Positions 1 to 15,616 of a DNA stretch of 40,286 nt are shown piece by piece. This stretch comes from a virus, in IMG/VR virus record IMGVR_UViG_3300049003_000123, positions 1 through 40,286 of that record. One strand, written 5' to 3'. The position numbers and the translations under genes were made by a program. Position 1 is the first letter of the stretch, and every line of letters starts with the position of its first letter. The notes beneath the pieces were generated by a model. That model saw nothing but the letters and a program-made list of their open reading frames with translations, had not been told where the DNA came from and made no database searches.

Positions 1-36
1 GGCGTCTCAGGCCCGCTCACTCGCCGAGGTGGAGAA

Positions 37-255
37 ATGATCGTCTTCCACGTCTCGACGGTGCTGTACCACGTACTCATCGCCGCGATCTCCGGCTTCA
101 TGGCTGCCGCGTCGTTCTCGTTTGCGCGTGACTCGTATTGCACGTGGAATCGAAGCTGGTACGAGTGGATCAAGGCGGTGTATCTCGCCTTCCTGGCGAT
201 GCTCTTCATCGCGTGCGCGATTGGCTTCTCCTGGTGCGCGTGGAGGCTCGCGTGA
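37..255 (+). CDS. small two-helix membrane protein, function unknown
   Basis: A 72-residue protein with two hydrophobic stretches, at about residues 5-28 and 47-68, separated by a short charged and aromatic loop. It is probably a two-pass inner-membrane peptide. A GAGGTGGAG purine tract at 26-34 sits just upstream of the ATG. Its TGA overlaps the GTG of the next gene, so the two are probably translationally coupled. I do not recognise a family. Holin-like or superinfection-exclusion roles are possible for phage proteins of this shape, but nothing in the sequence decides this. Confidence 0.6.
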   Translation: MIVFHVSTVLYHVLIAAISGFMAAASFSFARDSYCTWNRSWYEWIKAVYLAFLAMLFIACAIGFSWCAWRLA

Positions 256-539
256 GCGACGACATCCGCATCTGCAAAGGCCCAACGTGCGGCGCGACGA
301 TCCGCTTCGTAACCGTGGATGGTCGTCGGGTGCCTGTGAATGTAGCGCCCGATGCGGACGGATCAATCGTGGTCGTCGGCAAGGATTCCGGCGTCCGGAT
401 GACGGCGGACCAACGCGCGACGCTGCAGAACTGGAACGTCTACATGGAGCACAGCCAGACGTGCTCGGACATCGTGTGGCTGCGCCTGCGTCAACGTGAC
501 GCGCATCCGCAACAGCGATACGCGGGAGCACGCCGATGA
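252..539 (+). CDS. small zinc-finger-like phage protein
   Basis: A 95-residue protein. The GTG at 252 is preferred over start codons further upstream because it gives a GTGA overlap with the preceding stop, and because recognisable sequence begins right after it. An N-terminal CKGPTC pair is followed by the stretch GRRVPVNVAPDADGSIVVV and then a later HSQTC. This layout (Cys pair, a 'make it valid' beta strand with a PV-(N/D)-x-x-P motif, then His/Cys) matches a small family common in phage genomes and thought to bind one zinc. The role is unknown. It overlaps the next gene by four bases. Confidence 0.65.
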   Translation: MSDDIRICKGPTCGATIRFVTVDGRRVPVNVAPDADGSIVVVGKDSGVRMTADQRATLQNWNVYMEHSQTCSDIVWLRLRQRDAHPQQRYAGARR

Positions 540-757
540 CGCGATCGGCTGCGAAGCGGGCAAACGGTAATGCGCTGTCGGTCGTGAACGCGATTCCATC
601 GACGAAAGCTGACCAGTGGCGCGACGACAACGGTGCCTTCGATGAAGTCACCACGCGCGCACTAGCGAGAACTAATGGCGTCGCAGTGGACCGCGAAACC
701 AATTGGGCGTTCGCAGCAGAAATCTTGAATCGCCAGACGGCGGTGGAGTGGCTATGA
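536..757 (+). CDS. hypothetical protein
   Basis: A 73-residue soluble protein whose ATG overlaps the preceding TGA. It has a basic N-terminus and an acidic, aromatic middle (DQWRDDNGAF). I recognise no motif, membrane segment or cysteine pair. It is accepted as a gene because it fills the space between coupled neighbours in one strand and frame without a gap. Its own TGA (755-757) overlaps an ATG at 754 that could start the next gene. Confidence 0.5.
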   Translation: MTRSAAKRANGNALSVVNAIPSTKADQWRDDNGAFDEVTTRALARTNGVAVDRETNWAFAAEILNRQTAVEWL

Positions 758-771
758 AAAAGGAGAGGTCA

Positions 772-981
772 ATGAAAACGCAGCAGTTTCGCCAAGGAGA
801 CGTGCTCGTGCAGCGCGTCACGTCAATTCCGGAAGGTGACACTGCAGTCGCTCGCGACAACGGCCGCGTCGTCCTGGCGTACGGGGAAGTCACCGGCCAC
901 GCGCACGCGATCGCGGAAGCCGAAGTGACGAATGCGGGACGCTTTACCGTAAAGAGATCGACGGTGACGAACCGTTGGTGA
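772..981 (+). CDS. truncated GHAHAI-motif phage protein
   Basis: A 69-residue product. The start at 772 has an AGGAGAGG box at 761-768, while 754 is an alternative start six codons earlier. The N-terminal two thirds (QGDVLVQRV, DNGRVVLAYGEVTGHAHAI) match a small phage protein family of unknown function that I know by its GHAHAI motif. Those relatives normally continue for another 50 or more residues into a HEEH...YRVxRQREY ending. Here the match stops after about residue 46, and the rest reads as unrelated Arg/Thr-rich sequence to the TGA. The C-terminal half therefore appears lost, and the next reading frame carries a fragment of a different family. Confidence 0.6.
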   Translation: MKTQQFRQGDVLVQRVTSIPEGDTAVARDNGRVVLAYGEVTGHAHAIAEAEVTNAGRFTVKRSTVTNRW

Positions 982-1241
982 TGGTGCGTGTGCTGAACGC
1001 AACGCCCGAACCCGATGGAAGCCTCACTCGTGATGAAGCCCTTGCCGCCTTTCCTGGTGTGAGTGTGGCCGAGGTCAAGGACGACATCATCCGGATGATC
1101 CATGTCTCCGCGGCTTCCGCTGATGCACGGTTCAAAGACTACTTCCTGCGCGTCGATCCGAGCATCACCACTGCCCGCGCTGCAGTGGCGTGGACATTCG
1201 ATCTCCCGACGAAATCCTATCGCCCGTCCGTTCAGGCCTGA
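981..1241 (+). CDS. C-terminal remnant of a DUF6745-like protein
   Basis: An 86-residue reading from ATG 981; TTG 975 and GTG 978 are alternatives. The sequence VLNATPEPDGS, then FKDYFLRVDPSITTARAAVAWTF, then a Tyr/Pro ending matches, from memory, the C-terminus of DUF6745-type proteins. Those are usually several hundred residues long and have leucine-rich-like repeats in front. The match extends upstream in the same frame to about 924 (CGTLYRKEIDGDEPL), inside the preceding gene and without an obvious start codon, so the N-terminus is missing. About 34 extra residues are inserted between PDGS and FKDYF. It may be a decaying fragment or a re-started mini-gene coupled to the upstream stop by a TGATG overlap. 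Confidence 0.5.
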   Translation: MVRVLNATPEPDGSLTRDEALAAFPGVSVAEVKDDIIRMIHVSAASADARFKDYFLRVDPSITTARAAVAWTFDLPTKSYRPSVQA

Positions 1242-1257
1242 ACCCTCAAAAATTCGT

Positions 1258-1749
1258 ATGTCGAACTCCGCAAAGAAGCCGATGAAGGCGCTCTCGGTGC
1301 AGCAGCCCTGGGCGACCTTGCTCTCGATTGGCGCGAAGCTGATCGAGACGCGTTCGTGGTCGATCGCGTACCGCGGTGCGATCGCCATTCACGCATCGCG
1401 ATCGTATCCGGCGGAGATTCAGATGATCGAGCGGAGGCCGGAGTTCTACTCCGCGCTCCATCGTGATGGAAAGTACTCTGACCCGATTCGTGACGCTGGT
1501 TGCGTGATCGCCGTCGCGGATGTCGTCGGGTGCGTCGACGTTGCGTTCCTGCACAGCGGCAAGAGTCCACACGCGAAGCTTCTGACTGAGCGCGAGCTCG
1601 CCTTCGGGGATTTCTCGCCGCGGCGGTTTGGATGGGTGCTCGGCAACGTTCGGCGGCTGCAAAAACCGATTCCCTGCAAGGGCTCGCGATCGCTTTGGAC
1701 GCTTCCTCCGAACGTTGAGTTTCAGATCCTCGAGGAGTTGTGCGCATGA
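1258..1749 (+). CDS. ASCH-domain protein
   Basis: A 163-residue protein beginning MSNSAKKPMKALSVQQPWA. The early block, with a conserved Gln-Pro-Trp, IGAKLIETRSW and RGAIAIHAS, is the hallmark of the ASCH fold (PUA-like beta barrel). A later block (GCVIAVADVVGCVDV, then FGWVLGNVRRLQKPIPCKG) completes the barrel. ASCH proteins bind RNA or modified nucleosides, and some hydrolyse N4-acetylcytidine. Phage members are of unknown role. No ribosome binding site is convincing, and ATG 1282 is an alternative start. It overlaps the next gene by four bases. Confidence 0.8.
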   Translation: MSNSAKKPMKALSVQQPWATLLSIGAKLIETRSWSIAYRGAIAIHASRSYPAEIQMIERRPEFYSALHRDGKYSDPIRDAGCVIAVADVVGCVDVAFLHSGKSPHAKLLTERELAFGDFSPRRFGWVLGNVRRLQKPIPCKGSRSLWTLPPNVEFQILEELCA

Positions 1750-2201
1750 CGCTGCAGCGGCAGCGATTGAAACGGCCCGACCTTCCCGGGGAAGCGGAAG
1801 CGCGAATGGCTGCGCATCCGAAGCCGCAGTATCGAGAAGTCATTGTGGACGCGGGGATCGACACGCGGCGTCTGCAACTCCGAAAAGTTCATCCGGAACG
1901 TGAGCCGGATTTTCTCAACTATGTACGCGACCGCGCTTGTGAGATCGCCGGCCACGTTCTCCACCCGCAGTGCTGGAACGTCGATTGTGGCCGGAACCGC
2001 GCCGCCCATTGTGGCAAAGCGATCTCGGGTCGATTGAAGAGGACTGACCGCCAGGTGATCACTCTCTGTGACCTTGCTCATGACGAGCAGGAGCGGGACA
2101 TGGATCTCTTCGACAAAAAGTACGGCATCAACCGCTTCGAAATCGCGGACCGGCTTTGGGCCGAGTACTGCGCGTTGAAAGGAAGGGACGTCAATGGCTG
2201 A
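1746..2201 (+). CDS. DUF968-like / HNH-type phage protein
   Basis: A 151-residue protein whose ATG overlaps the preceding TGA (ATGA); GTG 1740 is an alternative start. The middle reads FLNYVRDRACEIAGH, then a CWNVDCGRNRAAHCG cluster, a RLKRTDRQVITLC strand and an AHDEQE helix. It ends in GINRFEIADRLWAEY. The order (Cys, Cys/His cluster, 'D-x-x-V-x-x-L-C', then a helix ending in ALW-like residues) resembles DUF968/NinG-type HNH-like proteins, which are probably DNA junction- or end-binding nucleases in phage recombination. The usual His-His pair is imperfect, so activity is uncertain. Confidence 0.5.
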   Translation: MTLQRQRLKRPDLPGEAEARMAAHPKPQYREVIVDAGIDTRRLQLRKVHPEREPDFLNYVRDRACEIAGHVLHPQCWNVDCGRNRAAHCGKAISGRLKRTDRQVITLCDLAHDEQERDMDLFDKKYGINRFEIADRLWAEYCALKGRDVNG

Positions 2202-2466
2202 TAAGAAACGCCGTAAGAGCTACACCACCGCCGAGGAAAAGCGGTTCCTTGTGTACACGGAGACGCACCTGCAAGAGGCCGTCGCCCATGCTGTCGAAGC
2301 CCCGCTCGAAGAGCGCCGCGGCAAACAACTCGTGGCGCGCGAGCTGATGGACCAGCGGGACAAGCTGGAACAGAACATCGAAGTTGGCGCCGAGTCGGTC
2401 GCGGAAGAAGTGTCATCGGAGCAGACGGAGCCTGGTAAGAAAAAGAAGGGCCGCGGCCAGTCGTGA
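2194..2466 (+). CDS. hypothetical charged protein
   Basis: A 90-residue, highly charged protein. The start overlaps the end of the previous gene by eight bases, with a GGAAGGGA purine tract at 2180-2187. It begins MADKKRRKSYT, has a long predicted helix rich in Glu, Gln and Lys (about residues 12-65), and ends with a lysine run. There are no membrane segments or cysteines. It may be a small DNA-binding or structural helical protein. I do not recognise the family. Confidence 0.5.
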   Translation: MADKKRRKSYTTAEEKRFLVYTETHLQEAVAHAVEAPLEERRGKQLVARELMDQRDKLEQNIEVGAESVAEEVSSEQTEPGKKKKGRGQS

Positions 2467-2675
2467 CGCTCGCTGAGGCCATTGACGCTCCGCGAAGTTC
2501 GGTGCCGACGCTGAGCACTTCAATGGCCTGCGCCGATTGTGAGTGCATTTTTCGGCGCGGTACCAAATGTCCCTACTGCGGATCGGCGTCCCTCATGAAC
2601 CTCGCTGAGGTGCTGAACCGAGGAAATCCAACAACGGGAGGTGAAGACCCGCCACAGAAGGAAATCGAATGCTGA
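2463..2675 (+). CDS. small zinc-ribbon protein
   Basis: A 70-residue protein starting at GTG 2463, which overlaps the preceding TGA as GTGA. Residues 23-41 hold CADC and, ten residues later, CPYCGS, a rubredoxin-like zinc-ribbon knuckle. A hydrophobic LMNLAEVL helix follows. Phages often carry such one-knuckle proteins, and their function is unknown. It overlaps the next gene by seven bases. Confidence 0.6.
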   Translation: MTLAEAIDAPRSSVPTLSTSMACADCECIFRRGTKCPYCGSASLMNLAEVLNRGNPTTGGEDPPQKEIEC

Positions 2676-3046
2676 TCGTCATCGAAGTAACCGTAGTTCT
2701 CCTTTTCATCCATCAGTACATCAACTTCAGGAGCATGAAGAAAATGAATGATACCGAACGGACACTCGTCAATAATCTCACCACAGCGTTCAACGACTAC
2801 AGCACCAAAGTCGGCAATGCGCAGCTCGCCGCAACGAAGCGGATCGAAGAGCTGCTCGCCGGGGACACGGACTCGGACGACTTCGTCGCGGCCGTGAACG
2901 AGCAGATCGCCACGATCAACTCCGCGGCGACGCACCTCGTCGATTTCAACGTGCCGCCCGCGACTCCGGAAGCGCCTGTCCCGGTGATCCCGCCGGCCGC
3001 GACGGAGCTGCCGCCGGCCGCTTCGACCGACGCGCCCGCGCAGTAA
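2669..3046 (+). CDS. membrane-anchored protein with Pro/Ala-rich tail
   Basis: A 125-residue protein. Residues 1-19 (MLIVIEVTVVLLFIHQYIN) form one membrane helix or uncleaved signal anchor. A helical, charged region follows (about 24-85), then a Pro/Ala-rich tail (about 90-125). An internal ATG at 2741 could give a soluble form beginning near MKKMNDTERTLV, but the upstream start keeps tight coupling to the preceding gene. The helical part resembles small tail- or membrane-associated helical bundle proteins. I recognise no specific family. Confidence 0.5.
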   Translation: MLIVIEVTVVLLFIHQYINFRSMKKMNDTERTLVNNLTTAFNDYSTKVGNAQLAATKRIEELLAGDTDSDDFVAAVNEQIATINSAATHLVDFNVPPATPEAPVPVIPPAATELPPAASTDAPAQ

Positions 3047-3059
3047 AGAAACTTCGGCT

Positions 3060-3140
3060 TCGACAGCGGCCTTGGAAGCTGTCGATCGCCGGTCGGGGGG
3101 AACGCAGAGTCCGCGTTGGAAGACCCTCGACCGCCGATCG
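3060..3140 (+). promoter_or_regulatory. overlapping leader hairpins ahead of the methyltransferase gene
   Basis: Two inverted repeats lie in the 121-base gap before the C5 methyltransferase. The first has perfect 8-base arms (TCGACAGC at 3060-3067 and GCTGTCGA at 3078-3085). The second pairs 3083-3099 with 3124-3140 with one mismatch and one G-U pair. They share bases 3083-3085, so they compete. There is no U-tract, so this is not an ordinary terminator. Regulation of methyltransferase expression is an inference from position. Confidence 0.4.
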
Positions 3141-3167
3141 ATCGAGTCCACGATCAAAAACCTGAGA

Positions 3168-5030
3168 ATGACCTCTTACCCTACAGCCACTGATCTATTT
3201 TGCGGCGCCGGCGGAAGCTCGCATGGCGCCGAACTCGCGGGCATTGAAGTCCGGCACGCGAGCAACCATTGGCAGCGCGCCGTCGATACCTACGCGAAGA
3301 ATCATCCCCTGACGGACGTCGATTGTGCTGATATCTCGAAGACAGATCCTCGGCGTTACGACCGCACCGACATCCTGATCGCATCGCCGGAGTGCACGAA
3401 CCACAGCCTGGCCAAGGGCGTACGACGGATCGCTTTGTCGCAGGATCAGATGTTCGGGTGCGACCTTTGCGCGCGGCATGGTGAATCGAACTGCCCGAAA
3501 CACTCCGATCCGATCGTGCGCTCGCGTGCCGGCGGTTGGGATGTGGTGAAGTTCGTCGAACATCACCGCTACTCGATCGTCATCCTCGAGAACGTTGTGG
3601 ACTGGCTCGAATGGGGAGACTTCCAACGCTGGTGGCGCACGATGGAGAACCTCGGCTACGTCGGCCAGAAGGTGTTCTTCAATTCAATGTTCGCGCCGCC
3701 GACGCCGCAGTCGCGCGACCGGCTCTACATCGTGTGGCATCGCAAGGGGAATCGAGCTCCGAATTGTGATCTCAGGCCGCTGGCGTTCTGCAATACCTGT
3801 GATCTCGACATCAACGCGAAGCAGGTGTTCAAGAACGGCTCGTCACCGAAAGCGCGCTACGGGAAACAGTACTTCTACGCCTGTTCGACCTGCCAAGCGG
3901 TTGTGCACCCTTACTACTTCGCCGCCGTAAATGCGATCGATTGGAGCATCCCGGCCGTGCCGATCGGCGAACGTGCGAAGCATGGTCTCCAGCCGCTGAA
4001 GCCGCGCACGATGGAGAGGATTCAGTACGGCATCGATCGATACGGCAGCAAGCCGCTCATTGTCACGGTGAACCAGACGAACCGGCTCGGAGGACGAGTC
4101 AGGCCGGCGAGTGGCGCGCTCTTCACTCAGCCCGGATGCTCGGTGACGGGGATGGCTTCGCCGTTCATGGTGGAAACAGCATTTTCGCACGCACCCCTGG
4201 GGCAAGGAGGTAGGGCTCGAGGCGTTGAAAGATCGTTGCCAACGCAGAGCGCTCGGCTGACCGGGGGCGTTGTTTCTCCGTTCGCTCTTCACATGCAGGG
4301 CTCATTGCGCGCACACGGGCTCGACGAACAGCTCTCGACGCAAGTGGCGAGTTGTCCACAGGACGCTCTGCTCTCGCCCGCGTTTATGCTGGCCGCGGGT
4401 AGCAATCCCTTTTCGCCGCGGTCGGTAGAAGAGACGATGCCGACGCTGACCGGATCGGATCGCGGGGCGTTTGCTTTCGCGCCGTCATTCATCGCGAATT
4501 TGCGTGGCACTGGTGATGATCAGGTTCGCTACACGTCATCAGGTCTGGACGAGAGTCTCGGCACAATCAGCGCCGGCGGCGTGCACGCGGCAATCGTGAA
4601 CCTTCGCGACTGGACATTCGCGCGGCAGCTCTGCACCGGAGTCGAGGCGCCACTGCCGACGCAGGTAGCCGGCGCGACGACCGCGCTTCTCTCGCATCGT
4701 TCTCCGTTCGTGGTCAGCTACTACGGCGGTCTGCAGGCGGCTGGCATCGACGAAGCGATGGGCACTATTCCAACGCGCGACCGCCACGCACTCGTCGTGC
4801 CGTCGATCGAGGAATGGTGCTTCCGGATGTTCAAGCCTCCCGAGATCGGAATCGGGATGGCTTTTCCGCCGACGTACATCGTGACGGGCAACGATCGCGA
4901 CCAGGTCAAGCAATACGGCAACGCGGTGACGCCGCCAGTGATGCGATGGCTGATCGCGATCTGCCTGGAATCGCTCTATCCCGAACGTCCCGCCTATGAC
5001 CCATGGGCGGAGTGGAGGACGGCCGCGTGA
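3168..5030 (+). CDS. DNA (cytosine-5) methyltransferase
   Basis: A 620-residue enzyme from ATG 3168, chosen because motif I (DLFCGAGGSS, residues 9-18) follows at once. Motif IV reads SPECTNHS (73-80) with catalytic Cys76, ENVV (141-144) is motif VI, QSRDRLYIV (181-189) is motif VIII and YGNAVTPP (583-590) is motif X. It transfers a methyl group from SAM to C5 of cytosine. A zinc-ribbon-like insert (Cys208/211 and Cys239/242) and about seven spaced repeats of an acidic-LPTQ or GTI type (about 315-545) form the target-recognition region. This kind of repeat is seen in phage C5 enzymes. It overlaps the next gene by four bases. The sequence recognised is unknown. Confidence 0.93.
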   Translation: MTSYPTATDLFCGAGGSSHGAELAGIEVRHASNHWQRAVDTYAKNHPLTDVDCADISKTDPRRYDRTDILIASPECTNHSLAKGVRRIALSQDQMFGCDLCARHGESNCPKHSDPIVRSRAGGWDVVKFVEHHRYSIVILENVVDWLEWGDFQRWWRTMENLGYVGQKVFFNSMFAPPTPQSRDRLYIVWHRKGNRAPNCDLRPLAFCNTCDLDINAKQVFKNGSSPKARYGKQYFYACSTCQAVVHPYYFAAVNAIDWSIPAVPIGERAKHGLQPLKPRTMERIQYGIDRYGSKPLIVTVNQTNRLGGRVRPASGALFTQPGCSVTGMASPFMVETAFSHAPLGQGGRARGVERSLPTQSARLTGGVVSPFALHMQGSLRAHGLDEQLSTQVASCPQDALLSPAFMLAAGSNPFSPRSVEETMPTLTGSDRGAFAFAPSFIANLRGTGDDQVRYTSSGLDESLGTISAGGVHAAIVNLRDWTFARQLCTGVEAPLPTQVAGATTALLSHRSPFVVSYYGGLQAAGIDEAMGTIPTRDRHALVVPSIEEWCFRMFKPPEIGIGMAFPPTYIVTGNDRDQVKQYGNAVTPPVMRWLIAICLESLYPERPAYDPWAEWRTAA

Positions 5031-7615
5031 GTGCGATCTTCAACCTCATACCGCCGGAGCGTCAGGCGGCGGCTGCCGCGTATCAATCCTTCCTGGAGGC
5101 GAAGATTGCGTCCGTGCCGTCGAGCGGCTTCGAGATAGCTGTGGGTGATGTGAACCCCGCGTGCAAGCCACACGTGCGCGCGATCGTGCCGTGGATGGTC
5201 GGGAAGGGGAGGGCGGGTTGCTTCTCGCTCTTCGGGATGCAGAAGACGTCGACGCAGCTCGAGGCCGTGCGACTGACGCGCGAGCTCGCCGGCGGGAACG
5301 CCCTCATCGTCTGTCCGTTGGGGGTGCGCCAGGAGTTTAGGCGCGACGCGATGGAGCTTCTCGGCTGGCCGCGGCCGCCGCGGTTCATCCGCTCGACTGA
5401 AGAGATTACGGACGAGGATGAAATCTACATCACGAATTGGGAGTCGGTCCGGGAGCGGAAGATTGATCCGCGCCGATTCACGGTGGCCACCTTCGACGAG
5501 GCCGACGCGCTGCGTTCTTTCGGATCAAAAACTTTCGGAGAGGTCGTCATTGGTCCGTGGCACGAGATCAAGTATCGCTACGTGGCCAGCGCCACCCCCG
5601 ATCCAAACGACTACATCGAACTCCTCGGTTACGCACAGTTCCTCGGCGTCATGGATATCGGCCAGTCAAAGACCCGCTTCTTTAAACGTGACTCAGAGCA
5701 CGCCGACAACCTGACGCTCTACCCTCACAAGGAGGCCGAGTTCTGGTTGTGGGTCGCGTCATGGGGACTCGTCATTCAACGGCCGTCAGACCTCGGATTC
5801 TCGGACGACGGATACCTTCTCCCGCCGCTCGACATTCGGTGGCACGAGATCCCTTCCGATCATCGCGACGCCGGCGAGGAGAAGAACGGGCAGCGACGCC
5901 TTCAAAAGGACGTCGCCGTTGGCGTTCGTCACGCGGCGAAAGAGAAGCGGGAAAGCCTACCAGCCCGAGTTGCGAAGATGTTGGAACTTCGCGACGAGGA
6001 TCCCGACGCGCACCGGATGATCTGGCACGACCTGGAGGACGAGCGCAGAGCGATCGAGGCGGCAATCCCCGACGTCGTCTCTGTGTACGGGACTCAGGCG
6101 CTCGAAGATCGGGAGAAGGCGGTCGCCGCGTTTGCCGACGGTCAGACCCGCGAACTCGCGTCGAAGCCGGTACTGCTGGGTGCCGGAGTTAACTTGCAGC
6201 GCCACTGTTCGTGGCAGATTTTTCTCGGCATCGGCTACAAGTTTCGCGACATCCTGCAGGCGCTGCATCGGCTCTATAGGTTCGGCCAGACCAAGCCGGT
6301 CCGCGTCGATTTCATCTACACCGAGGCGGAGCGCTCCGTTCGCGCCGGGCTGGAAGCGAAGTGGGCGCGGTACAACAAGCAGACCGCGAAGCTGGCCGCC
6401 ATCATCCGCGAACTCGGTCTGGCGGAGATCTCGATGGCGTCGCTGCTCACGCGATCGATGGGGATTGAACGGGCCGAGGTATCCGGCGAAAAGTTCTGCG
6501 TCGTCAACAATGACTGCGTCCTCGAAACCATGGCGATGGACGACGACAGCACGGATCTGATCTTCACCAGCCCACCGTTTTCAACTCAGTACGAATACAC
6601 GCCTTCATTCAACGACTTCGGCCACACCGACTCGACCGAGCACTTTTGGGCGCAGATGGATTTCCTGACGCCCGAGCTCTATCGGGTTCTTCGGCCGGGC
6701 CGAGATCTCGTGATTCACATCAAGGACCGCGTGGTGCCGGGCGGCATGACCGGCCTCGGTTTCCAAGTGGTGGACGCGACGCACGCCGACGCCATCGCTC
6801 ACTACAAGCGGCACGGCTTTGCCTTCTTAGGCATGAAAACAATCGTCACCGACGTCGTTCGCGAGAACGCTCAAACCTACCGCCTCGGCTACACGGAGAA
6901 CTGCAAGGACGGAACGCGGATGGGAGCCGGCCTGCCGGAGTACTTGCTGATCTTCCGAAAGCCGCCGAGCGACCGAAGCAACGGCTACGCCGATGTGCCG
7001 GTGGTGAAGAGCAAGGAGGAGTACTCCCGCTCGCGGTGGCAGTTCGACGCCCACGGCTTCATGCGGTCAAGCGGCAACCGACTGCTGACGCCGGAGGAGA
7101 TCGTCAGGCTGCCGTGGAAATCTATCTTTCGCATTTTTCGTGATCATTCGCTCAACGAGGTCTATGACTTCGAGCAGGATGTTGCGCTCGCCGAGGCACT
7201 CGAAAAATGTGAGCCGTCGCGGCTTCCTCCGGACTTCATGCTCCTACAGCCGGCGAGTCATCATCCCGATGTCTGGACCGACGTCGCCAGGATGCGAAGC
7301 CTGAACGGGTCGCAAGCAGCGCGGAGCCGCGACAAACATCTTTGTCCTCTCCCGTTCGATATCGTGCATCGAACGATCGTCCAGCGCTCACAGCCAGGCG
7401 AAGTTGTTTACGACCCGTTCTTGGGTCTAGGGACCACCGTGTATTGCGCGATCAAGTTAGGCCGCCGCGCCCGCGGGAGCGAGTTGAGCCCGCAGTATTT
7501 TAAAGACGTCGTCTATTACGCCAGGCTCGCCGTGGCTGAGCGCGCAACGCCGTCGCTGTTCGATGTTCTCGATGTTGAAGCTGAGGAGGTGCAGCGTGAC
7601 GCTCTCGCTGTTTGA
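5027..7615 (+). CDS. SNF2-like helicase / beta-class DNA methyltransferase fusion
   Basis: An 862-residue protein. GTG 5027 overlaps the previous TGA and has GGAGTGGAGG upstream. Residues 55-460 form a two-lobed SNF2-type ATPase: FGMQKT (69-74) at the Walker A position, FDEAD (156-160) as Walker B, SAT (188-190), and QALHRLYRFGQ (411-421) as motif VI. Residues about 490-835 form an amino-methyltransferase with TSPPF (514-518, motif IV) before DPFLGLGTT (796-804, motif I), the beta-class order. The MTase should methylate adenine N6 or cytosine N4, and the helicase may translocate or give processivity. The Walker A lacks the usual Gly before Lys (Gln72). Related helicase-MTase fusions occur in phages. 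Confidence 0.9.
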   Translation: MSAIFNLIPPERQAAAAAYQSFLEAKIASVPSSGFEIAVGDVNPACKPHVRAIVPWMVGKGRAGCFSLFGMQKTSTQLEAVRLTRELAGGNALIVCPLGVRQEFRRDAMELLGWPRPPRFIRSTEEITDEDEIYITNWESVRERKIDPRRFTVATFDEADALRSFGSKTFGEVVIGPWHEIKYRYVASATPDPNDYIELLGYAQFLGVMDIGQSKTRFFKRDSEHADNLTLYPHKEAEFWLWVASWGLVIQRPSDLGFSDDGYLLPPLDIRWHEIPSDHRDAGEEKNGQRRLQKDVAVGVRHAAKEKRESLPARVAKMLELRDEDPDAHRMIWHDLEDERRAIEAAIPDVVSVYGTQALEDREKAVAAFADGQTRELASKPVLLGAGVNLQRHCSWQIFLGIGYKFRDILQALHRLYRFGQTKPVRVDFIYTEAERSVRAGLEAKWARYNKQTAKLAAIIRELGLAEISMASLLTRSMGIERAEVSGEKFCVVNNDCVLETMAMDDDSTDLIFTSPPFSTQYEYTPSFNDFGHTDSTEHFWAQMDFLTPELYRVLRPGRDLVIHIKDRVVPGGMTGLGFQVVDATHADAIAHYKRHGFAFLGMKTIVTDVVRENAQTYRLGYTENCKDGTRMGAGLPEYLLIFRKPPSDRSNGYADVPVVKSKEEYSRSRWQFDAHGFMRSSGNRLLTPEEIVRLPWKSIFRIFRDHSLNEVYDFEQDVALAEALEKCEPSRLPPDFMLLQPASHHPDVWTDVARMRSLNGSQAARSRDKHLCPLPFDIVHRTIVQRSQPGEVVYDPFLGLGTTVYCAIKLGRRARGSELSPQYFKDVVYYARLAVAERATPSLFDVLDVEAEEVQRDALAV

Positions 7616-7892
7616 CCTTCCTCCGGCACGAGCGACTGTCGCCGCATCACCCACTGCGAAGGCCGAGTCAGACGATGTAATTCTCCGCGTCCGGCATAGG
7701 GATGGAGACTTCTATCACCTGACATCGGGAGGCGTCGTTGATCGTCAATTTCAAATCATCGTGCTGATGAATGGTCTCGTCTTCTTCGAATTCATCGACA
7801 ACAAAGAGCGGCGTCCTGACCACAGCCGGATCACGCGCGAGGTGATCGACTGGATGATGAAGATGGGGACGTGGCGTGAGGTGGTCTCGTGA
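7596..7892 (+). CDS. hypothetical protein
   Basis: A 98-residue protein. GTG 7596 has an ideal GAGGAGG box at 7583-7589 and lies inside the end of the methyltransferase gene. The N-terminus begins VTLSLFDLPPAR, a short hydrophobic/proline peptide like those that bind partner proteins. The rest looks like a small alpha/beta domain (FYHLTSGGVVDRQFQIIVLMNGLVFFEFID). No family is recognised. Its position between the two modification enzymes suggests an accessory role, which is only an inference. Confidence 0.6.
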   Translation: MTLSLFDLPPARATVAASPTAKAESDDVILRVRHRDGDFYHLTSGGVVDRQFQIIVLMNGLVFFEFIDNKERRPDHSRITREVIDWMMKMGTWREVVS

Positions 7893-8623
7893 TTTTCTTT
7901 CCGGGGCTTCATCAGCCATCGGACGCACAGCACTTTTCACGTGCGTTCATTAGTGTGAATCGTCTCCGTGACCGCGCGTCTGGCTTTGCCGTCAACGATT
8001 GGATCATGGATTCCGGCGCGTTCACGGAGGTGGCGCGCCACGGCGGTTACCGGCAAGGTGTCGAGCGGTACGCCTTCGATGTCGGTCGCTGGGCGAAGTG
8101 CGGCAACCTGCTCGCCGCGGCCGCGCAGGATTTCATGTGTGAGCCGTTCGTCGTCGCAAAGACAGGACTCAACATTCCGACGCACCAGCGTCTCACGATA
8201 GAGCGTTACGACGCACTGCTCGATTGCGACCCTCGCACGTACATCCTGCCGGTGTTGCAGGGATACGCACCGGGCGATTACGTCCGACACGTTGACTCGT
8301 ACGGCCAGCGTCTCGCTGAGGGCGCATGGGTTGGAGTCGGCTCGATCTGTAAGCGGAACGCGAGCGTGGGCTCAGTGGAGGCGGTGTTGCGTGCTATCCG
8401 GGGTGTCCGTCCTGATCTGCGACTCCACGGCTTCGGACTGAAGATTACAGCTCTTCAAAGCGACAGCGTCCGACGTTCTCTTTACTCTGCCGATTCGATG
8501 GCTTGGAGTTTCAGCGCGCGAATGCAGGGCCGGAACGCGAACGACTGGCGCGAAGCCGAGAGGTTCGCGGAGCGCGTGCGATCAGCACCAGCGCAGCGAT
8601 CGCTTCTCGGAGATGCGGCATGA
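7889..8623 (+). CDS. dpdA: DpdA-like 7-deazaguanine DNA transglycosylase (TGT superfamily)
   Basis: A 244-residue protein. Key motifs are MDSGAFT (40-46), a Gln-Asp pair at 80-81, PVLQG (121-125), VGVGSICKR (148-156), HGFGLK (180-185) and DSMAWS (202-207). This is the TIM-barrel pattern of tRNA-guanine transglycosylases as found in the shorter phage DpdA proteins, which swap guanine in DNA for a 7-deazaguanine (preQ0-type) base. Asp41 and Asp202 align with the two catalytic aspartates of TGT. The TGT Cys-rich zinc site is absent, which argues for DNA rather than tRNA as substrate. It overlaps both neighbours by four bases. No preQ0 synthesis genes are in the window, so the base would come from the host. 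Confidence 0.8.
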   Translation: MIFFPGLHQPSDAQHFSRAFISVNRLRDRASGFAVNDWIMDSGAFTEVARHGGYRQGVERYAFDVGRWAKCGNLLAAAAQDFMCEPFVVAKTGLNIPTHQRLTIERYDALLDCDPRTYILPVLQGYAPGDYVRHVDSYGQRLAEGAWVGVGSICKRNASVGSVEAVLRAIRGVRPDLRLHGFGLKITALQSDSVRRSLYSADSMAWSFSARMQGRNANDWREAERFAERVRSAPAQRSLLGDAA

Positions 8624-9606
8624 AAGTACTCCACCTGCGCTACGCGGCGAAGCTGCAGCACTACAAGGACCGGAACGTCCCCTGGCTGAAGATGTACACG
8701 GCCATCCTTGGAACGCACGCCATTACGCCGAGGACCGATAAAGAGGTCGTTGCGTACGCACAGGCGGTGTGGGCGCTGTCCGACATGGCGAAACTCGTCC
8801 TGCCGTATCTGGAAGCCTTGGGGAGCCGCCAGACGCCGATTAACCAGATCCCCTACCAGATGGGGTGGATCGCTCACGAGCTGCGCATCCTGAACCTCTC
8901 ATCGCAGCCGAGGGTGCTTTCCCGTGCCGTGCACGAAATCATCGATCAAGGTCTAGCGGAGTGTCTAGACATCACGTCTATCCATGAATCTAGACTGCCC
9001 CTCTCTTTCTCTGAAGGTGTTTCTCTGGGTTCTGACCTGGGAGGGGGTGCGGGGGAGGGTCCGTCGATCGGCGACATCGAACGCGAGGCTCCTGACTGGG
9101 CAAAAGTGTCGCCGGAGCTGCTTTTGGCAGTGGAGCACTACGAGCTTGCCATGCGGAAAGCGCCGTCGTGGCCGGCTGTGCGCCGCGGTGTGCTGCGCGA
9201 CCTCGGCCGCTACTTCGCCGAGGCGGATGGGAAGGTGCGCGACCTCGAGCCGGAGTTCGACTGGCTGATCTGCTTTGCCAGAGCGACCGAGCAGGGGATG
9301 GTTGCGGAGATCCCGGGCTTCGGTCTGGAGTGGTTCTTCCGCACGGAGAGCAACGGCGCCCGCCTCAACGCGCTGAAGGTGTGGGACTACGGCTTCGAGT
9401 CGCGTGAGGAGAAGAAGGCACGTCAGGGACGGCATGGCGACTGGCGCGACGGTGACTCGGATTTCGCGCGATCGAACGGCTACGTTGTCCGAATGGAGCC
9501 ATCTAACACGGCAGTTCGCCGTTTCGTTCGTAGCGATGAACAAGTGAGTTTCGCGTTCGCAGATGAGCCGCGAACTTCGCTGTTCGTTGTCGGAGGAAGA
9601 CGATGA
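8620..9606 (+). CDS. phage replication initiator / helicase loader-like protein
   Basis: A 328-residue protein; ATG 8620 overlaps the preceding TGA. Residues 11-30 (LQHYKDRNVPWLKMYTAIL) match the start of winged-helix phage replication proteins. The N-terminal domain runs to about 105, and a low-complexity Gly/Ser linker covers about 118-152. A second domain (about 155-260) may contact the helicase. It lies one small gene upstream of dnaB, as expected for an initiator or loader. The linker DNA holds iteron-like repeats and a G-quadruplex motif, like phage genes that contain their own origin. The family assignment rests on motif and context. Confidence 0.7.
   Translation: MKVLHLRYAAKLQHYKDRNVPWLKMYTAILGTHAITPRTDKEVVAYAQAVWALSDMAKLVLPYLEALGSRQTPINQIPYQMGWIAHELRILNLSSQPRVLSRAVHEIIDQGLAECLDITSIHESRLPLSFSEGVSLGSDLGGGAGEGPSIGDIEREAPDWAKVSPELLLAVEHYELAMRKAPSWPAVRRGVLRDLGRYFAEADGKVRDLEPEFDWLICFARATEQGMVAEIPGFGLEWFFRTESNGARLNALKVWDYGFESREEKKARQGRHGDWRDGDSDFARSNGYVVRMEPSNTAVRRFVRSDEQVSFAFADEPRTSLFVVGGRR
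8951..8995 (+). repeat. four iteron-like GTCTAGAC repeats (candidate origin)
   Basis: Four copies of a GTCTAGAC-like unit lie in one orientation: GTCTAG at 8951, GTCTAGAC at 8963, GTCTA at 8976 and ATCTAGAC at 8988. The copy-to-copy spacing is 12, 13 and 12 bases. CTAG is rare elsewhere in the window. The stretch 8941-9030 is about 48% G+C against roughly 60% around it. The repeats sit in the linker of the replication initiator gene, where lambda-type phages keep their origin. Origin function is inferred. Confidence 0.6.
9039..9059 (+). other. G-quadruplex motif inside the initiator gene
   Basis: Runs of 3, 5, 5 and 3 guanines are separated by loops of 1, 3 and 1 bases on the + strand (9039-9059). 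This meets the standard criterion for a stable intramolecular G-quadruplex. It lies 44 bases after the iteron-like repeats and encodes part of the Gly-rich linker. Some origins use such structures, but the role here is unproven. Confidence 0.5.
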
Positions 9607-9866
9607 ACGTGGACATCACCACCCTTGCGCTGAATCGCGCCATCACTGTGACTGAGTACGCAATTGTGATCGAGGAACAGATGCATCCGGGCCACGAGAT
9701 CGCATGGTCTATCTCGACCGGCAAAGTGAGTACCGGCGTGATGACGCTGCGCTGCCTGACATGCCAAGAGGAGTTCACGCACACGCTTGAGCGTCGTCGC
9801 CGAAGGCTGCATGTAAAACCCTACCGGGGATATGGGCCAGAGAAGCCAGTAAGGCGGAGATTCTGA
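9603..9866 (+). CDS. small basic zinc-knuckle-like protein
   Basis: An 87-residue protein whose ATG overlaps the TGA of the initiator gene. It has a Thr/Val-rich beta-like first half, then a single LRCLTCQEEFTH motif (Cys-x-x-Cys and a nearby His), and an Arg-rich C-terminus (about residues 66-87). Binding of nucleic acid through the basic tail is plausible. No family is recognised. It sits between the replication initiator and DnaB. Confidence 0.5.
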   Translation: MNVDITTLALNRAITVTEYAIVIEEQMHPGHEIAWSISTGKVSTGVMTLRCLTCQEEFTHTLERRRRRLHVKPYRGYGPEKPVRRRF

Positions 9867-9898
9867 TCGATCAACTCGACGTCGCGCTCGACCGGCCG

Positions 9899-11260
9899 TT
9901 GCCGCAGTCTCCGGATGCGGAGCGCGCGGTCCTCGGCTCGATTCTGATCAACAACCATGTGTTCTACCGTGTGGTCAGCACGATCACTACCGAGGATTTT
10001 TTTCGCGACGCGCATCGAACGATTTTCGCGACTATGCGCCGATTGGCGGAGCAGAGCCGCGAGATCGATCTGTTGACGTTGCGCGAAGAGTTAGCGAAGA
10101 ACGCCCAGCTCGAGCAGGTCGGCGGAACGGCGTATGTCGCGTCACTGGTGGATGGCATTCCCGATATCGCGAACGTCGAGCGCTACGCGCACATCGTCAA
10201 AGAAAAGTCGACGCTGCGGCGGCTGATCGTGATGGGCAATTCCGTGATGCGCGCGGCGCTCGACTCGCCCGGCGAGCCGGCGGACGTGCTCAACATCGCC
10301 GAAAAATCGATCTACGAAATCGCCGAAGGCTCCATCGAGAAAGGCTTCGTCGCCCTCGATCGGATCACGCGCTCGAACATGACCGCAATCGAGCAATTGC
10401 AGCACGCCGGAAAACTGATCACCGGCATCCCCACCGGCTACGACCGCTTCAACGAATTCACCTCCGGATTCCAGCTGCAGGACTTGATCATCATCGCCGG
10501 CAGACCCAGCATGGGGAAGACGGCGTGGGCGATGAATATCGCTGAATCGATCGCGATCCCTGATCGTGCCGGCGATCCTCACCGTCCTGCGCTACGGCTG
10601 TATGCGGTCGGCTTTTTCTCGCTGGAAATGTCGAAGGAGCAGATCGGGCTGCGCATCCTTTCGTCGGAATCGGGCGTGTCGAATCACCTCATCCGCGCGG
10701 GCATGCTCAGCGAGCGGAATTGGCGTGATCTCGCCGACGCCTCGGCGCGGCTGGCGAAGGCGAAGATCTTCATCGACGATTCTCCCGGCATCGACATCAT
10801 GGAGATGCGCGCCAAAGCGCGGCGCCTGAAGATGGAGGCGGGACTGGACATGATCATGGTCGACTACCTTCAGCTCATGTCGGTCAAGGGGAAGGTCGAG
10901 TCGCGCAACCAGGAGGTTTCGCAGATCTCGCGCGGGCTCAAAGCGATCGCGAAGGAACTGAACGTTCCGCTCATCGCGCTCTCGCAGCTGTCGCGGCGTC
11001 CCGAGCAGCGCACAGGCGATCACCGGCCGCAGCTCTCCGACCTCCGCGAATCGGGATCGATTGAGCAGGACGCGGACGTGGTCTGCTTCATCTATCGCGA
11101 TGAGGTCTACAACAAGGACACGGAAGAGAAGGGGATCGCCGAGATCATCATCGGCAAACAGCGCAACGGCCCCATCGGCGATTTCAAGCTGGTGTTCCGC
11201 AACGACATCACCAAATTCTTCAACTACGAGCCGACACCGGATTACGGAGCAGCAGCATGA
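9899..11260 (+). CDS. dnaB: replicative DNA helicase DnaB
   Basis: A 453-residue protein read from TTG 9899. The N-terminal domain starts PQSPDAERAVLGSIL and ends near residue 145. The RecA-like domain has Walker A GRPSMGKT (201-208), the LEMS block near 242-245, Walker B VDYLQLM (321-327), SIEQDADVV (387-395) and QRNG with the arginine finger (421-424). It unwinds DNA 5'-3' as a hexamer at the phage fork. No intein is present. The start is uncertain: no good box precedes TTG 9899. The frame is open upstream past an AAGGCGGAG box (9851-9859), with CTG 9863 or ATC 9866 as non-standard candidates overlapping the previous stop. Confidence 0.95.
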   Translation: MPQSPDAERAVLGSILINNHVFYRVVSTITTEDFFRDAHRTIFATMRRLAEQSREIDLLTLREELAKNAQLEQVGGTAYVASLVDGIPDIANVERYAHIVKEKSTLRRLIVMGNSVMRAALDSPGEPADVLNIAEKSIYEIAEGSIEKGFVALDRITRSNMTAIEQLQHAGKLITGIPTGYDRFNEFTSGFQLQDLIIIAGRPSMGKTAWAMNIAESIAIPDRAGDPHRPALRLYAVGFFSLEMSKEQIGLRILSSESGVSNHLIRAGMLSERNWRDLADASARLAKAKIFIDDSPGIDIMEMRAKARRLKMEAGLDMIMVDYLQLMSVKGKVESRNQEVSQISRGLKAIAKELNVPLIALSQLSRRPEQRTGDHRPQLSDLRESGSIEQDADVVCFIYRDEVYNKDTEEKGIAEIIIGKQRNGPIGDFKLVFRNDITKFFNYEPTPDYGAAA

Positions 11261-11481
11261 GCACTGCATGGAGACCTTTCCCGGTCACGCCTTCTGAGGT
11301 CGAAGCGATTCAGGATTCAGCTGAGGCGATCGCGGAGTCGAAGTTTGCGAAGGACGTTCATCACAAGATCATTCATACGATCGTTGTGCGGGCATGGCGC
11401 GATGCGTTGCGCTGGAGAGACGAGAACCCGGAGATTCCGAGCGGCGTCTATCAGCCGGGCGGGGAGATCGAGATCAAATGA
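11257..11481 (+). CDS. hypothetical protein
   Basis: A 74-residue acidic, mostly helical protein whose ATG overlaps the dnaB TGA. The central KDVHHKIIHTIVVRAWRDALRW segment would form an amphipathic helix. It ends in a short acidic tail. No motif is recognised. Coupling to dnaB suggests a replication-linked helper, but only position supports that. Confidence 0.5.
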   Translation: MSTAWRPFPVTPSEVEAIQDSAEAIAESKFAKDVHHKIIHTIVVRAWRDALRWRDENPEIPSGVYQPGGEIEIK

Positions 11482-11747
11482 ACGCCGCCGATCGCAGGAA
11501 GGTGCGGAAGCGTGGATTTCAACGCTTCCACATGGCGGACCAGCAGATCCTTCTCTTTGCCTTGGAAAACGTGCAAATGGTCAACGAGACGCCAGAGCAG
11601 ACCGCGCGGATCAACGACATGATCCATGAGCTCGGCCGCTTGACCAAGAGCGCCGTGGAGCGCCACCGAGGTCTCACTCCTCAACGGAGGAAGGTTTCCG
11701 GCTGCGTGCTCGCAATGTCTTATGTCCTGGACATAAGACATTGCTAA
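11478..11747 (+). CDS. hypothetical basic protein, last gene of the early block
   Basis: An 89-residue protein; the ATG overlaps the preceding TGA. The N-terminus is basic (DRRKVRKRGFQRF) and the middle is helical (QTARINDMIHELGRLTKSAVERH). The last 11 or so residues, ending MSYVLDIRHC, are encoded by a perfect DNA inverted repeat, so the C-terminus was probably shaped by that element, not selected as protein. No family is recognised. Confidence 0.5.
   Translation: MNAADRRKVRKRGFQRFHMADQQILLFALENVQMVNETPEQTARINDMIHELGRLTKSAVERHRGLTPQRRKVSGCVLAMSYVLDIRHC
11712..11744. repeat. perfect 16-bp inverted repeat with 1-base centre
   Basis: Arms GCAATGTCTTATGTCC (11712-11727) and its exact complement (11729-11744) flank a single T. 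It lies across the last codons of the 11478-11747 gene, at the boundary between the replication genes and the next block. There is no U-tract, so it is not a standard terminator. It could be an operator for a dimeric regulator, a recombinase site or a small palindromic mobile repeat. Confidence 0.75.
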
Positions 11748-11859
11748 TGGGGTTTCTCCTACCTCATAATCCCCATTGTCAAATCGTGTCTGAGAACGGC
11801 GCGTGCTGTCCAAGCGGCGCTGAAATCCACAAAACCAGTCGTAACTAAAAGTGGGGATT
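11746..11859 (+). promoter_or_regulatory. competing hairpins that could mask a ribosome binding site
   Basis: In the gap after the palindrome, AATGGGG (11746-11752) can pair with CCCCATT (11771-11777). An overlapping AATCCCCA (11768-11775) can instead pair with TGGGGATT (11852-11859), which contains the GGGGA box of the next gene. The two pairings exclude each other, as in attenuators and translational switches. The inference is from base pairing only. Confidence 0.4.
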
Positions 11860-11862
11860 GCT

Positions 11863-12423
11863 GTGGCAAGACCGCGCATCTTTACCGCCGAGGTTGAACT
11901 CCTGGAAGCGGAAGCTCGCCCAATCGTTCTCGCGTACAAGCGCCGAGTTATGGAAGAGGAAGGCAACACCCCTCTCCGTTCGTCGATGCCGCTTCTGATC
12001 GAGATTGTGCGCCGCGGTGTTTCCTACGGATCATCCTCGAGCGGGAATCCAGTTCCGATGACCCCGCGGCAGCAGTGGATCGTTTCTGTTCTCTGGGTGA
12101 TGAAGAGTCTCGGTGCTGTTTCATCGCACATTCTTCGCGAACGGCTTGTCGGCGGAGGCTCGTCGATTCAGGGTTCGTGGTCGCGCATCGCGGACGACCT
12201 CGAACATCAGACGTCCGGCCGGTTAACAATTTCAGCGAACGGCGTCAGAGATCTCTACCTCGCGGCGTTGCCGGCCTTCGTCGGTGCGCTCCGCGATCGA
12301 GGAATTACATGCGACTACGGATCGGCCACATCGCCATCGAACGATTGCGGCTTCATCGCGATCGAATCTGCTCGCGTGATTGACTCCATCGGAGATCACA
12401 TCGGCGCGTCCATGGTTGCCTAA
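11863..12423 (+). CDS. hypothetical protein
   Basis: A 186-residue protein. GTG 11863 (product begins VARPRIFTAEVE) is preferred because a GGGGA box ends six bases upstream; GTG 11851 in the same frame is possible. The N-terminal third is helical and basic (YKRRVMEEEG, PLLIEIVRRG). A Ser-rich link follows, then a mixed domain with HILRERL and RDLYLAALPAFVGALRDRG helices. A DNA-binding or regulatory role is conceivable given its position at the start of a new block, but I recognise no family. Its stop is directly followed by the ATG of the next gene. Confidence 0.55.
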   Translation: MARPRIFTAEVELLEAEARPIVLAYKRRVMEEEGNTPLRSSMPLLIEIVRRGVSYGSSSSGNPVPMTPRQQWIVSVLWVMKSLGAVSSHILRERLVGGGSSIQGSWSRIADDLEHQTSGRLTISANGVRDLYLAALPAFVGALRDRGITCDYGSATSPSNDCGFIAIESARVIDSIGDHIGASMVA

Positions 12424-12690
12424 ATGACAAGGCCGAAAGCTTCAACGTGGGGCAACGTCGCCCCGAGCTTTGCCGCGCGCGACAAACCGCTGGAAGAGTA
12501 TGTCGCCGAGGTCCGCGCGATCAAACAGGCGGAACGCGCAATCGAGCAGCGACGCTGTCCGAATGATGGCAAAGCGCTGAAGCGGAACGGTTGCACAACG
12601 TGCGGTTTCGCGCTGATCGTCGCGCCTCCACGCCATTCGACGCCGGACGCTGGATTCAATCGCCGTCCGACACCCGCGAAGCGGTTCTGA
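12424..12690 (+). CDS. small zinc-ribbon protein
   Basis: An 88-residue protein whose ATG follows the previous TAA without a gap. A helical, charged region (about residues 18-40) precedes a compact RRCPNDGKALKRNGCTTCGF segment with three cysteines in a C-x12-C-x-x-C arrangement. It looks like a minimal zinc ribbon, although one ligand is unclear. A Pro/Arg tail ends the protein. Function unknown. Confidence 0.5.
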   Translation: MTRPKASTWGNVAPSFAARDKPLEEYVAEVRAIKQAERAIEQRRCPNDGKALKRNGCTTCGFALIVAPPRHSTPDAGFNRRPTPAKRF

Positions 12691-12709
12691 ATTGAGGAGA
12701 GCGAAAACG

Positions 12710-13102
12710 ATGTCCCGACTCATGCCGTGGTACGCGGACTTCAATCAAGTCCCGGTTGCTGGATCGCTCGTCGGCATTACCGCGGCGTCGATTGCCGACG
12801 CGATCACTCCACATGCCGGAGATCGTTCCTTCCCTCCGTTCCTGCGCGTTCTCGTGATCTTCACAGGCGCAATCACGAATGCCGACATCACGATCAGCAT
12901 CGGCATCACGGACCAGAACGGAAAGACCGGCTGGACGCCTGGCGTCACGCAGGAAGTCCGAACGCTGCCTGGCGGCGGCGTAGTCGTTGGCATGTTCACG
13001 TTTCCAACTCTGCAGGGCGCGGCGATCAACATCGCGCTCGAATCAGCAATCACCGGCGGGGGCAGCGTGAAGCTGTACACCGCATTCACCGAAGAGCACT
13101 AA
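12710..13102 (+). CDS. hypothetical beta-rich protein
   Basis: A 130-residue protein. ATG 12710 is chosen over an in-frame upstream start because a GAGGAGAG box lies at 12694-12701. The sequence is rich in Val, Ile, Thr and Gly with alternating hydrophobics (FLRVLVIFTG, ITISIGITDQNG, GGVVVGMFTF), as in beta-sandwich virion proteins. It has no signal peptide. It directly precedes the fibre-like gene, so a fibre- or capsid-associated role is reasonable but unproven. Confidence 0.5.
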   Translation: MSRLMPWYADFNQVPVAGSLVGITAASIADAITPHAGDRSFPPFLRVLVIFTGAITNADITISIGITDQNGKTGWTPGVTQEVRTLPGGGVVVGMFTFPTLQGAAINIALESAITGGGSVKLYTAFTEEH

Positions 13103-13106
13103 AGAC

Positions 13107-15419: not shown

Positions 15420-15484
15420 AAATCGTTAGGTCAGTAAATATTACCAATCACGGAAAAACAACGTACCCCATAGGTGACACGCGC

Positions 15485-15521
15485 GAAGCACGGCGCACTG
15501 CGGCGCCTGCGCCAGCGCTTC
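15485..15521 (+). terminator. interrupted GC hairpin after the fibre-like gene (weak terminator candidate)
   Basis: GAAGC (15485-15489) pairs with GCTTC (15517-15521), and GGCGCA (15492-15497) with TGCGCC (15508-15513), giving 11 pairs with a small internal loop. A short T-run (CTTTTT) begins a few bases later, not directly at the stem. This may be a leaky terminator, or it may mark a packaging site ahead of terminase. Confidence 0.35.
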
Positions 15522-15563
15522 ACAGAACTTTTTACGCTGGTTCTTGATCTTCAATAAAGCGTT

Positions 15564-15592
15564 TTGACGCAAGGGCTTACGAGCACTATTTT
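15564..15592 (+). promoter_or_regulatory. sigma70-like promoter for the packaging/late genes
   Basis: TTGACG (15564-15569) and TATTTT (15587-15592) are separated by exactly 17 bases. They lie in the 197-base gap between the fibre-like gene and the terminase small subunit. This is the best consensus-like promoter I found in the window and is well placed to drive the long late operon. Confidence 0.6.
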
Positions 15593-15616
15593 TTACTCGA
15601 ATGGAAACTTTTCAGA

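Follow-up and report, generated by a model that had tools for sequence, protein, structure and literature searches.

Why would a phage carry three DNA-modification enzymes of different chemistry side by side, and what would each of them contribute to its genome? The question is raised by a gene cassette in the IMG/VR virus record IMGVR_UViG_3300049003_000123, a stretch of 40286 bp which was analysed as a whole and is referred to here as the window. The cassette encodes a C5-cytosine DNA methyltransferase, a protein in which a helicase is fused to an amino-methyltransferase, and DpdA, a DNA guanine transglycosylase. We consider it probable, at about 60%, that the phage uses these enzymes to modify its own DNA against host restriction, the marks being 5-methylcytosine (5mC), N4-methylcytosine (4mC) or else N6-methyladenine (6mA), and a 7-deazaguanine derived from the host. 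Within this reading, the DpdA step is the weakest.

A contiguous cassette of four genes

The cassette comprises four plus-strand genes at 3168-8623 (5456 bp, 13.5% of the record), all with open frames. They are listed below, together with the gene that follows them in the apparent operon.

3168..5030, plus strand: C5-cytosine DNA methyltransferase, 620 aa; matches to PF00145, phrog_116 and the M.HhaI fold
5027..7615, plus strand: 862-aa fusion of an SF2 (SNF2-like) helicase with a beta-class amino-methyltransferase, GTG start; matches to phrog_16 and PF01555
7596..7892, plus strand: small ORFan, 98 aa, GTG start; GAGGAGG upstream at 7583-7589
7889..8623, plus strand: DpdA, DNA guanine transglycosylase, 244 aa; matches to PF23859, phrog_1279 and the 7ui4 fold
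8620..9606, plus strand: 328-aa gene next in the apparent operon; 4-bp overlap with dpdA

The initial annotation had named the same three enzymes, placed them in one contiguous cassette with a single small gene in between, and estimated that about 5.5 kb of a 40-kb phage is devoted to them; the family matches and coordinates bear this out. It had also stated that nearly all junctions overlap by 4 bases, which is accurate provided that the GTG starts are used. Three of the four junctions overlap by 4 bp (5027-5030 between the C5 and helicase genes, 7889-7892 between the small open reading frame (ORF) and dpdA, and 8620-8623 between dpdA and the next gene), and the helicase-methyltransferase gene overlaps the small ORF by 20 bp. 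The family matches of the cassette lie far beyond chance.

The two methyltransferases

The motifs and repeats on which the assignment of the two methyltransferases depends are as follows.

3384..3395, plus strand: motif IV of the C5-methyltransferase, SPEC, with the catalytic Cys (Cys76, invariant in the alignment)
4218..4796, plus strand: six tandem modules in the target-recognition region (residues 351-543), core consensus RSVDEPLPTVTAGGRHALV
4917..4928, plus strand: motif X of the C5-methyltransferase, GNAV; Asn585 kept where CmoX has Arg
6569..6580, plus strand: motif IV of the amino-methyltransferase, SPPF (residues 515-518), a sequence motif
7412..7438, plus strand: motif I of the amino-methyltransferase, DPFLGLGTT, for S-adenosylmethionine (AdoMet) binding (DPFLGLG, residues 796-802), a sequence motif

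The first protein of the cassette matched PF00145 (9e-28) and phrog_116 (8.9e-58), and the catalytic domain of its AlphaFold2 (AF2) model matched M.HhaI with a Z score of 24.2 over 259 residues. The C5-methyltransferase motifs were found in order, namely I (FCGAGG), IV (SPEC), VI (ENV), VIII (QSRDR) and X (GNAV), and Cys76, Glu141-Asn142, Arg183, Arg185 and Gly584-Asn585 were invariant in an alignment of 21 proteins. Motif IV is without the Pro-Cys dipeptide, as Glu precedes Cys76. Most helicase-linked phage C5-methyltransferases have SPDC or SPEC at this position, the Pro being replaced by an acidic residue; as the Cys itself is kept, the exchange marks a subgroup of the C5-methyltransferases and not a protein outside the family. 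The carboxymethyltransferase CmoX has Arg350 where HhaI has Asn304, together with an SPPC motif (PMC12783734). Motif X of the window enzyme keeps the Asn, and therefore ordinary methylation is expected; carboxymethyl chemistry of the CmoX type was considered for this enzyme and rejected in view of Asn585 and the SPEC of motif IV.

The tandem modules are placed between motifs VIII and IX-X, with a spacing of 32-40 aa. The best match of the protein to itself scored 48, against 23.7 +/- 3.9 in shuffled sequences (maximum 33), and in 18 of the 20 homologues a profile of the module (consensus RSVDEPLPTVTAGGRHALV) detected between 5 and 9 copies, a lenient count since the profile was iterated on the same homologue set. 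These homologues were gathered via the helicase-methyltransferase loci; with the C5-methyltransferase itself as query, no match was obtained in the viral contigs. Trautner and colleagues (1996, cited in PMC12707154) are said to have described multispecific C5-methyltransferases of Bacillus phages with contiguous small recognition modules. Like the multispecific enzymes of Bacillus phages SPR and phi3T, the window enzyme appears to combine one catalytic domain with consecutive small modules, six here and 5-9 in its relatives. The analogy suggests that the repeats may be DNA-recognition modules, the window enzyme thus addressing several target sequences.

The fusion protein matched phrog_16 ('DNA helicase', 4e-106) across both halves and PF01555 (2.6e-19), and has 80 relatives in viral contigs at 44-62% identity. 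Its helicase half contains a DEAD box and motif VI (QxxHRxxRxGQ). In the methyltransferase half motif IV precedes motif I, which is the beta-class order ([DNS]PP[YF] before FxGxG). TSIPF occupies motif IV in 63 of the 80 relatives and SPPF was seen in none of them; on this comparison, the SPPF of the window is closer to the textbook form than the SIPF of its viral-contig relatives. Its motif I, DPFLGLGTT, is also more canonical than DPFGGLMTV, the common form among the relatives. A serine in the first position of motif IV is typical of N4-cytosine enzymes. Because motif IV of the window reads SPPF, with Ser first, the sequence suggests 4mC as the product in preference to 6mA, roughly 65:35. 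If the enzyme makes 4mC, all three chemistries of the cassette would act on G:C pairs.

The C5-methyltransferase and the helicase-methyltransferase together form a common phage module. A C5-methyltransferase of this kind was present in 34 of 80 helicase-methyltransferase loci of viral contigs, and in 24 of these it lay on the same strand at a distance of at most 600 nt (15 upstream, 9 downstream). Both protein families are shared by Arthrobacter phages Auxilium and Sakai and by Pseudomonas phage YMC11/07/P54_PAE_BP, in which the pair (gp01-gp02) is adjacent with a 4-bp overlap and the helicase is 57% identical to that of the window. The order in the Pseudomonas phage is, however, helicase then C5, the reverse of the window, and no DpdA gene lies beside the pair. 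DpdA was found in 1 of 50 helicase-methyltransferase phages, and that phage had no C5 match. Since the pair is common and DpdA so rarely accompanies it, DpdA is an unusual addition to this module.

DpdA and the source of its precursor

The last enzyme of the cassette matched PF23859 (2.1e-38; 132.4 bits against a curated cut-off of 27) and phrog_1279 (5.7e-62). The best fold match of its AF2 model, which has a predicted local distance difference test score (pLDDT) of 89.9, was the preQ0 insertase DpdA 7ui4 (Z 19.5, root-mean-square deviation 3.4, 225 residues), nearly tied with an archaeal tRNA-guanine transglycosylase (arcTGT; Z 19.3). Comparison with DpdA of phage 9g using hhalign gave an E value of 8.5e-8, and Asp41-Ser42-Gly-Ala-Phe, Asp81, His180-Gly-Phe-Gly and Asp202-Ser of the window protein align with the 9g enzyme, whose activity has been demonstrated by experiment. 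Asp41-Ser42, Gln80-Asp81, Gln124-Gly125, Gly149/Gly151, His180-Gly181-Phe182-Gly183 and Asp202-Ser203 were invariant in 18 aligned DpdA proteins. In an alignment that includes 9g, Asp is found at position 41 in 11 of 11 rows and at position 202 in 10 of 11. These two residues may correspond to the catalytic aspartate pair of TGT enzymes, whose E. coli member gave no profile alignment with the window DpdA; sequence searches of the PDB with the window protein returned noise only. His180 occupies the position of His196 in 9g, the residue which separates DpdA from DpdA2, where it is lacking (PMC6884629). By this histidine and its fold, the window protein qualifies as a true DpdA. The DpdA proteins of 9g and CAjan are homologous to it, and in the catalytic region it has the same motifs as 9g, although the 9g protein has 317 aa against 244 in the window and the identity is only ~21%. 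In CAjan, published work has established that dpdA is essential for the modification and that the modification protects against restriction enzymes.

Phages 9g and CAjan have their own genes for the precursor pathway, whereas profile searches of the window record found no QueC, FolE or QueD; in the controls for these searches, QueC was detected in 12 of 14 control genomes, and FolE and QueD in phage 9g. The window DpdA is therefore a 'singleton', comparable to those of the group 3 phages of Hutinet et al. 2019 (Orion and 7-11), which likewise have DpdA without preQ0 genes. Unlike in Orion and 7-11, the window DpdA sits behind two methyltransferases. Since the phage lacks preQ0 genes, any 7-deazaguanine must come from the host or the medium, and DpdA probably depends on a host-derived precursor.

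The neighbourhood of dpdA in related phages bears on this dependence. In Sinorhizobium phage phiLM21, gp26, directly behind dpdA, is a YhhQ-family transporter (PF02592, 5e-14) and is followed by a methyltransferase; in a second lineage (L002-L004) a YhhQ-family gene is again found directly behind dpdA. As YhhQ is a preQ0 transporter (PMC6884629), DpdA is paired with precursor import in both cases, and this arrangement in relatives supports scavenging. Coordinates of such PF02592 genes directly downstream of dpdA are L100:8762-9292 and L003:about 8700-9196. Genes for preQ0 biosynthesis were not detected in these two phages.

Cassettes that combine DpdA with other chemistries recur, with changing partners. 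Rhizobium phage RHph_TM3_3_3 has a DUF4942-methyltransferase, an MT-A70 methyltransferase and DpdA. Its DpdA and that of phiLM21 are 56-58% identical to the window's, and in both phages DNA-methyltransferase genes lie no more than two genes away from dpdA; they belong to other families than those of the window, and phiLM21 has YhhQ in addition. One viral-contig locus (L017) contains a C5-methyltransferase of the same PHROG, a Dam-type methyltransferase and DpdA within 7 kb, and in another (L014) a C5-methyltransferase lies 1.6 kb from DpdA. Four modification enzymes are packed into 3.6 kb of a viral contig of 81 kb (L001:2124-5771), in the order D12 adenine methyltransferase (PF02086, 8e-18), small ORF, Mom-family protein (PF25680, 2e-25), DpdA and N6/N4 methyltransferase (PF01555, 5e-22); this cassette is perhaps more striking than that of the window. 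A DUF5131 gene (PF07505, 3e-91) was observed immediately upstream of dpdA at L007:5133-6146. At least 6 of 19 distinct DpdA loci, the window included, have a methyltransferase within ~3 kb of dpdA, but we do not claim enrichment because phages carry many methyltransferases. The contiguous trio of C5-methyltransferase, helicase-methyltransferase and DpdA was found in no other locus examined; all three Pfam families occur, non-contiguously, in 4 of 23 other DpdA records (G001, G003, G018 and Mwe-JY25). Each enzyme family is thus already known, and the contiguous trio is a new combination of known parts.

The remainder of the record contains terminase-like, portal, head maturation protease and major head protein genes, and the virus is therefore a tailed phage. 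Its end falls within an ORF (39426-40286), so that the record may be incomplete or permuted. The small ORF of the cassette had no family match in Pfam, PHROGs, NCBIfam or PADLOC and no homologue in the other helicase-methyltransferase loci fetched. For the 328-aa gene after dpdA, no family match was obtained in Pfam, PHROGs or NCBIfam, and it probably falls outside the modification set. Near relatives of the phage were found neither by megablast against the phage collection (window 1-20000 as query) nor by searches of viral contigs that started from the portal, the major head protein and the gene following dpdA. Palindromes of 4 bases numbered 3401 in the record against 3400 expected, and those of 6 bases 895 against 980. 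Palindromes are therefore not avoided overall, which weakly fits a phage protected by modification and is no proof of it. Upstream of the cassette, at 1102-1749, an ASCH-domain-like protein is encoded (phrog_3193, 1.7e-38; Pfam ASCH under the cut-off), of a family that recurs close to helicase-methyltransferase genes in many viral loci. An ORF of 169 aa amid the structural genes (26190-26699) matched phrog_513, 'transposase' (4.8e-20).

Competing explanations and their consequences

If the cassette serves self-modification against restriction, it would act as an early-region unit, and its genes are predicted to be co-expressed, probably by coupled translation. The C5 enzyme would transfer a methyl group from AdoMet to C5 of cytosine, and the approximately six recognition modules would probably direct its single catalytic domain to several different short targets. 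In the fusion protein, ATP hydrolysis would drive translocation or opening of the DNA, and an exocyclic amine would be methylated, more likely cytosine N4, as suggested by SPPF, than adenine N6. DpdA would remove guanine from the phage DNA and put in its place a 7-deazaguanine, either preQ0 or a related base, drawn from the host queuosine pathway or the medium. Were these predicted activities all in place, the marks together would prevent cleavage by many restriction enzymes that differ in specificity. It is somewhat unlikely that the DNA of this phage bears three G:C-pair chemistries simultaneously (multi-site 5mC, helicase-driven 4mC and scavenged 7-deazaguanine) and is thereby resistant to restriction very broadly.

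Several observations weigh against self-modification by all three enzymes. The Walker A motif of the helicase reads GMQKT and not GxGKT, its relatives having GLGKT or GLHKT. In the AF2 model of the C5-methyltransferase pLDDT is below 50 at residues 291-549, a region that spans the repeats, and for this reason we infer their recognition role and do not read it from the structure. Outside the window the trio does not persist as a unit, so its functional coupling is unproven, and so is the supply of precursor by the host; no YhhQ was found in the window. Orion, a DpdA-only phage whose host lacks preQ0, is without 7-deazaguanine, and in Salmonella phage 7-11, also DpdA-only, 2'-deoxy-7-amido-7-deazaguanosine (dADG) reaches 0.02% (PMC6884629). 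These two phages also favour an explanation in which the phage has just two active enzymes, the C5 and helicase methyltransferases, and DpdA, being a singleton in a phage without preQ0 genes, is idle or nearly so in the natural host for want of precursor, or has drifted in function. Hutinet et al. 2019 left open whether singleton DpdAs have diverged (PMC6884629), and the related DpdAs in phage records come mostly from mycobacteriophages, at 35-40% identity. However, the core residues are invariant in 18 relatives from very different contigs, which would argue for retained catalysis, YhhQ adjoins dpdA in two related lineages, and preQ0 is made by many bacteria; we regard an idle DpdA, the main rival explanation, as unlikely.

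With a chance a little short of even, the genes may instead have accumulated at one variable spot as independent anti-restriction functions, each acting alone. The partners of DpdA vary by cassette (Mom with D12 and N6/N4 enzymes; C5 with Dam; DUF4942-methyltransferase with MT-A70; YhhQ with a methyltransferase) and no relative examined has the same contiguous trio, although the 4-bp overlaps suggest translational coupling. Such accretion overlaps with the self-modification explanation, which needs no cooperation between the enzymes. That DpdA modifies tRNA and not DNA is very improbable: the old annotation of phrog_1279 is 'queuine tRNA-ribosyltransferase' and TGT folds match nearly as well, but the profile comparison finds 9g DpdA and not E. 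coli TGT, the best fold match is a DpdA, the neighbours are DNA methyltransferases, and 9g dpdA failed to replace tgt in E. coli (PMC6884629). Least probable of all, and close to negligible, is a restriction-modification or defence system such as a bacterial Dpd island or DISARM, in place of phage self-modification. The C5 protein scores 3e-34 against DrmMII and the combination of a helicase with methyltransferases resembles DISARM, but DrmMII is one of many general C5-methyltransferase matches, and among the 25 matches listed for the helicase gene none was to a Drm model, DrmD appearing weakly in NCBIfam (E 0.064). Moreover, DrmA/B/C, a nuclease and further Dpd genes were not seen in the cassette, DpdA and its neighbours of no known family had no PADLOC match, QueC was not found, and the gene block directly precedes the DnaB-like helicase of the phage replication region.

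The initial annotation had read the cassette as layered protection from host restriction. Anti-restriction does emerge as the most likely role, but two of the supposed layers, the C5 and helicase methyltransferases, are one known module, and the DpdA layer would need a host or imported precursor, with phages of its kind having none of the base (Orion) or traces of it (7-11). Layered protection is accordingly something that we infer from the gene set.

It is still debatable if a phage whose only gene of this kind is dpdA modifies its DNA at all (Hutinet et al. 2019). The occurrence of DpdA in methyltransferase cassettes, twice before a transporter gene, offers 'scavenged precursor' as a testable answer. 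The repeat array of the C5-methyltransferase, with 5 to 9 modules among relatives, may provide a natural series on how methylation targets change. If the scavenging explanation is true, host queuosine metabolism would help to decide whether a phage escapes restriction.

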